DNA of 64,000 bases, taken from positions 3,472,001-3,536,000 of the forward strand of contig NEEC01000010.1 in NCBI GenBank assembly GCA_002189035.1, given 5' to 3'. A model generated the notes under the pieces. That model was not told the DNA's origin, made no database searches, and was given only the letters and a program-made list of their open reading frames with translations. How positions within the stretch are numbered: the first letter of the stretch is position 1; each line of letters starts with the position of its first letter. Source of the DNA: Utricularia gibba (taxonomy: Eukaryota > Streptophyta > Magnoliopsida > Lamiales > Lentibulariaceae). Of the stretch, positions 4,865 to 60,562 are shown in pieces. Both the position numbers and the translations under genes were made by a program.

Positions 4865-6041
<1,177 letters not shown>

Positions 6042-6261
6042 GGGAGAATTTTGTTTCCCCTTGGTCGGGGACGGATGTTAGGGAAAAGGAGGAAGAAGCC
6101 CCAGCCGATCGACCGGAGATAGGGTATTGAACTTGATATATACGCGATCAGCGTATCTCTGCCTAACCAATTGTTGAGATCAAAAACATGGATCGTGCGT
6201 ATTGGTATCCCTGAATGCCCCTGCCAGGTATTGTTTTGGGCAAGAAGTGGAGGATATGCTG

Positions 6262-23418: not shown

Positions 23419-29550
<6,132 letters not shown>

Positions 29551-30228
29551 CCCCTCTAGCAGCGAGCCGTAGCTGAAACAGGTAATTAAGTGCGGAGGAG
29601 GGTAGGATAAAAGAGAAAACCGCAAAGAAGAAAAAAGAAATCTCCCGCACGAACGTTCAAAACCAAATTCTCGTCTGTTCAATTGTAATATATATGTCTT
29701 GCTTCTCCGTCAAACCTTCTCTCCCAACTTTCTTCCATGGGCACATAAAACTCGATCTGGAGTGGTAACCACTAGAGCCAACATGTTACGGTGGAAGGAT
29801 GCGAAGCTCTCGATCCCCATGAAGGCAGCCTATTCATTAATTAACCAGTCCAAGTTCTCCCCAGTTCACATTTCGACAATTTTGTTAGAATCCATACCAT
29901 GGAACTGGTGTAATCTCCCACTGGAACAGAAGAAATTGGCATCTAGCTCGTATTATTCTGGGCAATTGAATAAGGATCCATAATAAAAATTTGACAATCC
30001 GGATATTATAAACGCAGGCAGCATTGGCTGCCCCACGTGGCAACGACAGCAGTAGCCACTGCCCGCCTACGTGTACACACTCCATTGGCAGTTCATGTTT
30101 TTCTTCTTCCCTCCTCAACGGCGGTGGCAGTGTGGCACCAAATGATGGGGAGCTACGGGTGTCCGGAAACTGGCACAAACGCAGTAATCCTGGCATCCGT
30201 ACCGTTTCCTTTGTCTTCCTCCCTTGTT
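29551..30228. other. Upstream region of XRN4
   Basis: This is the gap between the XRN4 start and the stop of the Raf-like kinase, both on the minus strand. It has no supported coding frame. A perfect CCACGTGG palindrome (30033-30040), a G-box/ABRE-type core, sits about 485 bp upstream of the XRN4 start. Its role is unproven. Confidence 0.4.
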
Positions 30229-33200
30229 TCATCTTCTACCCCTTTCATATTTCTTTGACGGCAGAGTGGTTGAGAGAACTCTCAGTCTTCTCGTTATTTC
30301 TGTGAAGGATGGTCTTGCTGTTGGATCATGGGACCAGCATTCCTCCATAAGTTTTCTCCACTCCACATCGCACCATTCCGGAATCGTTGGCCGCAATGTG
30401 TTGTTCACAATTCCACCTTCATCAAAATCACACACCGACAACATCAAGCTGCTCCTGTCTGAACGAGAACGTACATAAGCATGTGTTTTTGTGTTGCACA
30501 CCTATGATTGCACCACAGTGCATATTCATGTACGGCTCTTCTCCCGTCAATATCTCCCACATTGCAATGCCAAAAGAGAAAACGTCTACCTGGATCCACA
30601 GTCAAGCAAGAGATTTTAATCACATGCCAAAATTAAAATCCCATAACATGGACACGCGTCTAACCTTTTCGGAAACCCGGTTGCTGCCTCCATTTAGCAG
30701 CTCCGGAGTGTTCCACGAACACCACCAGACACAAGAGTATTCTGTTTTATTCTTGACAGTCCAAAATCACCAACCTGAGAGTAGCAGCATCACGTTGATT
30801 GGTAAACCAAATTGATGCAAAGCTCAGCAATTCCTTACAGAAATCTGGGAAACAACCTTGCATATGGGACGTTGGGGATCACCCAATTTTACTAGCAAGT
30901 TATCGCACTTCAAGTCAAAATGAACGATATTTTTCAGGTGCAGGTATTCCATGCCAAAAGCAGCATCTAGTGCAATCATAGCCTTCCTTCTCCTGTCCAG
31001 TGATCTGCTATGGAAATAAACTAACCATCTCATGGAATCAAACTAAAAAGAAACCAACAAGAAGGAAAGCACAAATAATAGGGAGAAGAAATTAAGAACC
31101 AACCGATCCTTCCTCAATATAGCACGCCTTAGTGATCCATTTGCCATGTATTCGGTCACAGTGGCAAATGCGCAGTCAGGTCCATCAGGAACCACCCCGT
31201 AGAATGCAACTATATTGGGATGATGGAGTCTAGACAGAATTTTATCCTCCCTCCAGAAATCATTGGTCTGAAGAATGCAGCCAGTATGAACTTATTATCT
31301 TTCATAAATCGGATTATATTCTCCAAAAAGCTTTTGATAATAGTCATATGTCTTTTACTCGGGACTAACCAAACTTTCCTGTTCGGAGGACCTTCCAGCA
31401 AAGCAATTCTTTCTTATTCTCTTAATGGCAACATCGGTTCCCCTCCATCTTCCATGGTACACGGTCCCAAATGTGCCAGATCCCAACTCCTTCAGATCTT
31501 CAAGATCAGCATTTCTTATGATCTGTGCGGTAGAGAGAGCACATGAGTTTTTTGGAAAATGCATGCTCTGGAAGGGAAACTAGGATACGAACTACCACGA
31601 AAATAGAATTAAAGCACGAGCATAAGATCACCTGCAAACCATATAGGCTGGCTTCCATTTCAATCATTGTAGCATCACGTAATGAGACATCCATATCTTC
31701 GACATCAGCATCCTGCATCCACGTGAACAACCAAACAAGTTTCTCTTTATTTACTTAGATGGTTTATTTAATCACCAATAAAACCATACATCGTCATCAG
31801 AATCATGCAACACACTTTCTACTTCTGTTTCTTCCGAGGATCTGATCTCATTAAGATCATCCTGTTGCACACGAGGGCTTATGGAGGCAGCAGAGCTTTC
31901 AAATGACATCTCCGTGGCTGCATCAATTATAACTTGAGTTTCTTGTCTGAAGGTTCCAGAAAATTTTCCTGAGGACAGAGGGTTGGCAAAGTTCTCACTT
32001 TCATTATCTAAGTCCTGGAAAGGGTATCTACCAGATCTTATTTCCACTACACTTAAATCATCGTTCAATCTTTTATTCTGCCAAGAGACTTCAGCCCGTA
32101 AAGCATCAACTTGCGTAACTCTAGGATAAATACTGCAGTCATCAAGACCTGCAGGTGAACTGGATTCATATTTGGACGAGATATATGGCCTCAGGAAATC
32201 TAGTTTGTTTACGCTCTTCTCATCTGTAATTTGCACTGCAGAAGGATTACAGCCAGCAACAGATGGATCACTGTCAATCAGATCATGAATTTGATTATGT
32301 ATATTCTGTTCTGGCATTTGATTCTTCACTGCTAACGGGTGTGAGGTCGTTTGATCAGTCACAGACATCATTGTCAAATCTTGAAGTGAAGTCTTCATAG
32401 AAGTAGATAGAGATGAATTCTTGCAGCCATTAACCTGCCTAAATGGACGACTGCACATTTGCGACAAGCTTGTTTTCTCTTCCAAGATGTTTGCCTTTGA
32501 TACACAATTCTTCCCAAGAGAATAACCTTCACCATCATTATTATTCTTTTTTTCTACGTTAAGTGTTGCCTTCTGGGTTTGGTCACCCCAGTAGATAAAG
32601 TCCTTATTAGGTGTCAGTGTCTCTTGCGACACTGGTACCTTATATGTGAATGAGACACGTTTCTCAGAAATGATCTTGTCTTCCAATATTCCTTCCAGGG
32701 ATGAACGGGACAGTCCATGTAAATGGGACTGTTCTGGGAAAAAAACTACAGATTCCTCGGATTGGAGTGGCACTGCAACTTGATCACTTCTAACTACACC
32801 CGAATCACTGGGACAAACATATGCTGATGTGGAATGAAAATCATTGTAGAACCAATTGGTTGTGCCTAAAGTAGGAGGTGTACAAGACTGTGAGCAGCAG
32901 GCTTCTTGCAAGGGAGGAGAAATCTGAAATCGGGATGCATCGAGCAAACAAGAATTGTTACATGATTGATCATCCTCAAGACGTTGGCAACTGACGTCTG
33001 ATCCATGCTTGCTTCTGGCATCTCTATAGCCTCTAAAGCTTGAAGTCCATAGGATATTCTGGAACCATCATGGAGGAATGAAGGCTTAGAATGGATTCGC
33101 TGAGCATTAGAATCTTCCACACATGGAGAGAGAAGCATATATTCCATAATGTTAAAATTGCATTTTTTTGTTTTTAAAATGAGGAAATGAAGTAGCATAC

Positions 33201-34085
33201 CACCAGTGGGGATGGTTTATCATCCACACTCTCCTTTCCTGTGCTTCCATGAAATCCTGGATCAAGAATCTCATTGATAGCAACTCCAGAATGATGATCA
33301 GCATCAATATGCAGCATGGTCCCGAGTGGTGGCTCAATATCATTATAAGAAATAAGGAAGAGTCTCAATCTTTGTGAACATCTCTCTAGGTCATTATACT
33401 CCTCAATCATATTACGGAGATCCTCATCAGAAGCCACAGATATCAGTGCATCCAGGTCTTCACCAGGAAGCTGGTACTTAGTGGTATGCGGATAGTTACA
33501 CATTGCAGCCGTTTTTTTAAGAAGTTCAGCATAACTTAAATCTGCTCGGATAGAGGCAATCTTTGTGTCTCCACCAATGTACCTAAGCTTCCCATCATTT
33601 GGCCGCGGACCTATCTTGCCCCCATAACTGCATAGGAATTTCACTTGTTTAGAGAAGCAACTACGGGAGTCAGAGGAGCGAATAGATGGACTAGATGTAC
33701 ACAATTTATCCAAGTCATCAGAGAGAAATCTTCTGTGATGTGTATAGGGATATGTTTCTGCAGTATATCCACCTGCAGGGCCAATATCCATTTTGAAGGC
33801 AAATCCATTTCTGGGACTAAAATCAGCGAATTCAGTTGGGCAGTCAGAATTCCTCCTCCGTGTCCCATGGATGCCTGCTATATTTTTGGAGGCATCCAAG
33901 CTTGGGTCCACTACTACATCTGCAAAATGATTTCTTCTAGACAAAGCACGAGTAAGCATAAAAGCAGGACAGAATTCCTCTCCTGTCCGTAGTGAAATAT
34001 TCTTGAGGCTCGTATCTACATTGTTTTGGTCGTTTGGCATGACCGCGGAAAACTCAATTCCACCACCAGGTAACTCACTTTTCAT
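30229..34085 (-). pseudogene. PB1-domain Raf-like protein kinase with disrupted kinase domain
   Basis: This is a B-group Raf-like MAPKKK with an N-terminal PB1 domain. The main N-terminal exon (ATG 34085) carries the conserved ISLRTGEEF, then PB1 at about 33340-33660: VKFLCSYGGKIGPRPNDGKL, YIGGDTKIASIRADLSYAEL, GEDLDALISVASDEDL. A long low-complexity middle follows (31772-32947). Kinase motifs: [24 protein letters not shown], a [12 protein letters not shown] catalytic loop (HFD is normal in this group), and [11 protein letters not shown]. Next should come VRGTLPWMAPELLNG. Instead 30690-30710 reads VRGTLRSC and stop. The codons for the missing P-W-M-A are gone with a 13-nt loss that shifts the frame; coding sequence in the old frame resumes at once. 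The distal exons ([20 protein letters not shown] to the end at 30229) are intact. The result is a truncated protein or an assembly error. Confidence 0.82.
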
Positions 34086-59779: not shown

Positions 59780-60562
59780 CTATGGGTTTCTGATAACGCT
59801 TCCTTTGAAAACGTAAACTATGTCACCGGTTTTAACCCCGTGCCAACGAAGGCTGTGATGCTCCCTCATAATTCTCTGTTTATGAACAAATATGTAGTCA
59901 TCTGCAGGCAGCATTCTCCTGTCAACCACCATCTCTCTCATCTGCTCCACCATCGTCGTCTCCATAATCTCCAAATCGATCCTCCTGCCGTTCAACACAC
60001 TCAACGAGGTCTGCAACACTACACATACCAGAGTCTTCATAAACACGTATATTTCCGACATTTCTCTCACGCCATACTCGTGTAAACTTCTCGTATCATC
60101 TTCCAATTCTACGGCTCCCCTGTCCAACAGCACTAGTGTCACTCTCCCAATGGGGGTGCCATCGATGATGTGGATTTTCTCCTTGAGGCTTCGGACTGTG
60201 TCCGAAATGTCGACCTCTAAGTCGATTCTCCGGGAGGGGAATCTGACATTTATCTTTAATTTGATGGGTAGGTAATGGATCGCCGGCATTGGTGGTCCGT
60301 TGTAAACAAGGACCATTCTCATGCCATCAGTGATTGCCGGATAGTCGGCCAAATCTAGACCATCAAGAAGCTCGCACCCATAGACACTAAGCAGTTGGCA
60401 ATCAACCGGAATTCCCACGATGCGTTGGATCCTTCTCTTGATCTCAGTGATGGCTTCTTTGCTACCCACATCAATCGGGAACTCGAACTTCTCCATTACC
60501 ACAGTAATCTTCATGATTCTCGCAATGTTTTTTTTAGGCAAACGGTCACGACGATAAGACAT
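59780..60562 (-). CDS. Tandem (three-domain) ubiquitin-like protein
   Basis: An intronless 260-residue frame, ATG at 60562. It is built of three diverged ubiquitin folds. Domain 1, about residues 17-90: MKITVVMEKFEFPIDVGSKE, ITEIKRRIQRIVGIPVDCQL, and LSVYGCELLDGLDLADY. Domain 2, about 100-175: INVRFPSRRIDLEVDISDTV, LKEKIHIIDGTPIG, TRSLHEYGVREMSEIYVFMK. Domain 3, about 178-256: VLNGRRIDLEIMETTMVEQM, LPADDYIFVHKQRIMREHHS, KTGDIVYVFKG. None ends in Gly-Gly and the protein ends RNP, so it is not conjugated like polyubiquitin. Arabidopsis has a cluster of similar intronless ubiquitin-like proteins (near At4g05230-At4g05310). The lack of introns and low similarity to ubiquitin fit a lineage-expanded family. 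Function unknown. Confidence 0.8.
   Translation of the reverse strand: MSYRRDRLPKKNIARIMKITVVMEKFEFPIDVGSKEAITEIKRRIQRIVGIPVDCQLLSVYGCELLDGLDLADYPAITDGMRMVLVYNGPPMPAIHYLPIKLKINVRFPSRRIDLEVDISDTVRSLKEKIHIIDGTPIGRVTLVLLDRGAVELEDDTRSLHEYGVREMSEIYVFMKTLVCVVLQTSLSVLNGRRIDLEIMETTMVEQMREMVVDRRMLPADDYIFVHKQRIMREHHSLRWHGVKTGDIVYVFKGSVIRNP

Follow-up and report, generated by a model that had tools for sequence, protein, structure and literature searches.

A 13-nucleotide loss breaks the kinase frame of a PB1 Raf-like gene in the Utricularia gibba assembly: recent inactivation or consensus error

Introduction

The B4 Raf-like kinases of Arabidopsis (RAF16/18/20/24/35/40/42) combine an N-terminal PB1 domain, a long linker and a C-terminal Raf-like kinase domain, and single mutants of all seven retain normal overall osmotic-stress kinase signals (PMC6992735). 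PB1 domains of plant kinases are reported to be likely type 1, without the conserved lysine (PMC7051960). Another group of plant PB1 proteins, the "Kinase-derived" family, comes from angiosperm ancestors and has been conserved in a kinase-less state; its member PAL OF QUIRKY (POQ) binds QUIRKY (PMC7051960).

A gene with the same domain order as the B4 kinases lies in the window analysed here, a 64,000-nt stretch of the Utricularia gibba genome (contig NEEC01000010.1, positions 3,472,001 to 3,536,000). It is probably a gene for a Raf-like MAP3K, B4-type in its architecture. Unlike the B4 kinases, the copy in the window cannot make a complete kinase domain, since its reading frame breaks after VRGTL. 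It shares with the "Kinase-derived" family a kinase-related PB1 domain without a working kinase (PMC7051960), but whereas that family is kinase-less, here all kinase exons remain and 13 nt are missing; with every kinase exon present, and with sequence conserved after the lesion, the gene was not assigned to that family. With its one frameshifting indel, the gene being intact in all other respects, and with intact paralogs elsewhere, it resembles recently inactivated duplicates, that is pseudogenes or null alleles. The best solved relative of an intact paralog's kinase is the kinase domain of Arabidopsis CTR1 (PDB 3PPZ, 3P86; E=2.6e-54), which is complete and reads GTPEWMAPE at the corresponding place, whereas the window copy lacks that segment and all in-frame sequence beyond it.

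Results

Gene structure and domains

The Raf-like gene was modeled on the minus strand with nine exons between 34085 and 30229. Downstream of it, in tandem and likewise on the minus strand, lies a gene for an XRN 5'-3' exonuclease, whose N-terminus falls within the open reading frame at 29290-29709. Exon 1 (33201..34085), which ends in a GT donor, carries the start methionine, the N-terminal region and the PB1 domain, the last at approximately 33354-33599 (PF00564, E=1e-20, profile positions 2-81 of 84). The linker occupies exon 2 (31790..33058), with 423 codons in an open frame, and is followed by exon 3 (31632..31712; DADVEDMDVSLRDATMIEMEASLYGLQ). The kinase N-lobe starts in exon 4 (31370..31522) with the G-loop GSGTFG and the VAIKR lysine, exon 5 (31104..31267) runs from helix C (FWRE) to the hinge, and exon 6 (30857..31004) holds the catalytic loop HFDLKCDN. 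Exon 7 (30665..30774) is the DFG exon, and exons 8 (30502..30589) and 9 (30229..30416) encode the helix F region and the last C-lobe helices including RPSFTEI, respectively, the natural stop (30231-30229) forming the end of exon 9. All introns of the model are GT-AG and 75-142 nt long.

The suggestion in the earlier note that this is a PB1 plus Raf-like kinase gene with intact PB1 and N-lobe agrees with the Pfam matches and with the exons themselves. Pieces of the kinase domain were recognized by Pfam in those kinase exons that were scanned, and the N-lobe and catalytic motifs (GxGxFG, VAIK, the helix-C Glu) can be read directly in exons 4-7. The match of the truncated kinase domain (PF07714, E=2.9e-34) stops at Pfam position 153 of 258, as compared with coverage of 3-258 of 258 in the intact paralog L025. 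In a comparison within the plant's own genome, L025 and L026 are the nearest relatives of the gene, with a dN of about 0.15.

The putative first intron (33200-33059), which joins the PB1 and linker exons, was placed from GT-AG and phase alone. L025 and L026 carry PB1 and linker in one long exon and have no counterpart of it. An alternative frame (EDSNAQRIHSKPSFLHDGSRIS...) is likewise open across 33200-33059, and the coding score at 33067-32960 favours neither frame 1 nor frame 2. Since two paralogs are intronless there, an additional frameshift separating the PB1 exon from the linker exon was considered; it is not claimed, because the coding scores are indecisive and an in-phase GT-AG intron suffices.

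Elsewhere in the window, a single minus-strand open reading frame of 260 amino acids at 59783-60562 has 3 stretches matching Pfam ubiquitin, each a divergent ubiquitin-like domain.

A 13-nt loss in exon 7 creates a premature stop

Exon 7 (30774-30665) measures 110 nt. The same exon is 123 nt long, or 41 codons, in each of five paralogs in the genome (L025, L026, L027, L028 and L029), all of which read VRGTLPWMAPEL, or more fully VRGTLPWMAPELL(N/S)G. The window copy instead reads VRGTLRSC followed by a stop, the TAA at 30696-30694 that results from the frameshift. The codons for PWMA are absent at the deletion junction (30704..30709), the exact breakpoint of which is ambiguous; the sequence observed at 30711-30701 is ACACTCCGGAG. 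The loss of 13 nt with its frameshift and early stop, as described in the earlier note, is thus present in the assembled sequence, and the loss of the PWMA codons is confirmed by PWMAPE being kept in all five paralogs. The old frame was also correctly said to continue: it picks up right after the junction as the third frame of exon 7 and stays open across exons 8 and 9 until the natural stop is reached. No further disabling lesion was found in the gene model.

The predicted product of 926 amino acids comprises an intact PB1 domain, the kinase N-lobe and half of the C-lobe. A complete kinase domain in a single frame, with P+1 loop, APE and helices F to I, is absent from the window copy. The loss of the C-lobe that had been proposed therefore applies to these elements, which make up its C-terminal half, and not to the C-lobe as a whole.

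Ribosomal frameshifting was rejected as a rescue of the frame. GTL-PELLNGG would result from a -1 shift at ACACTCC, but the site does not have the X-XXY-YYZ form of a slippery sequence, and PWMA would still be missing. Microhomology at the junction was dropped as proof of a deletion, since its length varies with the codon positions assumed for the original sequence; microhomology of 4 nt or more occurs in only about 2% of 13-nt windows drawn at random here.

Is the loss present in the plant?

A real deletion, whether it left a null allele, is bypassed at the RNA level or produced a dominant form, appears to us the rather more probable explanation. A short deletion would be unsurprising, since in the Utricularia group the repair of DNA breaks is proposed to be biased towards deletion (PMC11688529). 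On the other hand, there is a weighty possibility, albeit one that we lean against, that the living plant has an intact exon and that the 13 nt were dropped in consensus building. U. gibba has been assembled from PacBio reads only with HGAP, giving 581 contigs with an N50 of 3.4 Mb (PMC5793159). Small frameshifts do occur in the assembly. In the window, the GGPP-synthase-like (polyprenyl synthetase) gene on the minus strand at 4868-6077, the coding sequence of which is otherwise well kept, is 2 nt short in a CACACA run near 5447-5452 as compared with its intact paralog L054, which shifts its frame. The sister PB1-Raf paralogs L028 and L029 each lack one C of a C run, at different places in exon 1, and their frames are broken; the kinase domains of these two differ by a dN of 0.008 at a dS of 0.42. 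The single-C losses in L028 and L029 are likely consensus errors, and the small indels in all three genes fit residual errors of long-read consensus, recent inactivations being possible as well. Such frameshifts of 1-2 nt in otherwise well-kept genes suggest that indels in this consensus may not be trustworthy, and they lend weight to the earlier note's own reservation that the assembly could be at fault. The clean remainder of the Raf-like gene is compatible with an artefact too. Against such an error, a gap of 13 nt outside a homopolymer is atypical for long-read consensus, and the three other indels are of only 1-2 nt and lie in runs or short repeats.

A search of the genome assembly (100.1 Mb, 516 contigs) for copies of the locus found one at 100% and no second copy, the other DNA matches being at most 77% identical. 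A haplotig or homoeolog bearing an intact exon was rejected on the basis of this single full match and the next best of 77%.

The same assembly includes mitochondrial cox1 (L050/L051, contig C515, approximately 183500-185900), which reads SLLLLCCSALVE, the double cysteine of the Utricularia type, and also holds an intron with a LAGLIDADG-like open reading frame. Two contiguous cysteines at this site were reported from all Utricularia examined and from some Genlisea (PMC11688529).

The loss is recent or artefactual

Because synonymous sites are saturated between the window gene and its paralogs, dN before and after the lesion was compared instead. The ratio of dN after the lesion to dN before it was 0.90-1.24 when the window gene was paired with the individual paralogs, and 1.18-1.84 for paralog against paralog. 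Among residues that do not vary across the five paralogs, 15 of 113 before the lesion and 2 of 50 after it differ in the window gene. The sequence beyond the lesion is thus as conserved as that before it; the C-lobe was accordingly under selection until very recently, and the loss is either recent or artefactual. Given that the model shows no second lesion, the rough 95% limit on the time since inactivation is 0.005-0.009 neutral substitutions per site, presuming that the first intron is correctly placed. These ratios and the invariant sites bear out the earlier view of a recent event followed by well-kept coding sequence. An old pseudogene was rejected in view of the single lesion, the conserved C-lobe and the dN ratio of 0.9-1.2. 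The remaining paralogs are old, with dS saturated against the window gene, which therefore does not belong with recent tandem or homoeologous copies; in this respect it is unlike recently inactivated duplicates.

Predicted fate of the transcript and protein

Counted from the premature stop, exon 7 ends after 29 nt and the last exon junction follows after 117 nt; two introns lie beyond the stop. Plant introns situated 50-55 nt or more beyond a stop codon favour nonsense-mediated decay (NMD) (PMC5040709). Since the 117 nt exceed this distance, the transcript would be expected to be subject to NMD and mRNA levels to be low.

The anchor of the C-lobe core in kinases is helix F. With helices F to I missing, the remaining part of the C-lobe should neither fold nor work. 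A dominant role as partner, which the earlier note had envisaged for the truncated protein, finds no support here, in view of the predicted NMD and of the absence of the remaining C-lobe core, helix F included. Such a stable protein of PB1 and half a kinase, acting as a dominant-negative or scaffold partner, would have a complete PB1 domain and a kinase fragment whose Pfam match reaches position 153 of 258, and plants do have kinase-less PB1 proteins, the "Kinase-derived" ones, with PB1 domains resembling those of kinases (PMC7051960). We nevertheless think it very unlikely: besides the NMD-prone stop and the missing helix F and C-lobe core, the C-lobe sequence is still conserved, which leaves no room for a long life as a truncated protein, and self-association is not a given if plant kinase PB1 domains are likely type 1.

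There is hardly any probability, in our estimate, of a bypass at the RNA level, in which skipping of exon 7 or use of an internal acceptor, CGGAG|CTG, would restore the frame and yield a kinase-dead protein with the remaining C-lobe. Phase-0 introns on both sides of exon 7 would keep skipping in frame, and CTG-CTA-AAT sits in the old frame, but both products would be without DFG and activation loop and hence inactive.

Discussion

We lean slightly towards the reading, drawn from sequence, that this copy of a PB1 Raf-like MAP3K gene, B4-type by architecture, was inactivated recently and constitutes a null allele of a redundant gene. The 13 nt would have been lost by deletion, probably through error-prone repair of a DNA break, taking one nucleotide besides the PWMA codons of the P+1 loop, and a stop would have arisen four codons later. 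Most of the transcript would presumably be destroyed by NMD, and any 926-aa protein made would be catalytically dead, with a C-lobe unable to fold. The loss may have been tolerated since other PB1-Raf kinases persist, the allele thus acting as a null and not as a dominant form.

Were the deletion real and fixed, and the transcript to escape decay, the locus could encode a newly arisen regulatory PB1 protein of Raf kinase origin, at an early stage of the route behind the angiosperm "Kinase-derived" PB1 family; we regard this as extremely unlikely. Most likely, what is seen here is an ordinary broken gene copy or an assembly flaw, and no new kind of protein. In the case of an artefact, small frameshifts in this assembly would be unsafe as calls of gene loss without reads. 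The understanding of Raf-like kinases is unchanged whether the deletion is real or artefactual. If real, it would be a further case of a gene inactivated recently in a plant with a small genome, for which deletion-biased repair has been proposed, and the gene affected would be a kinase of the osmotic-stress type in what is probably an aquatic plant.
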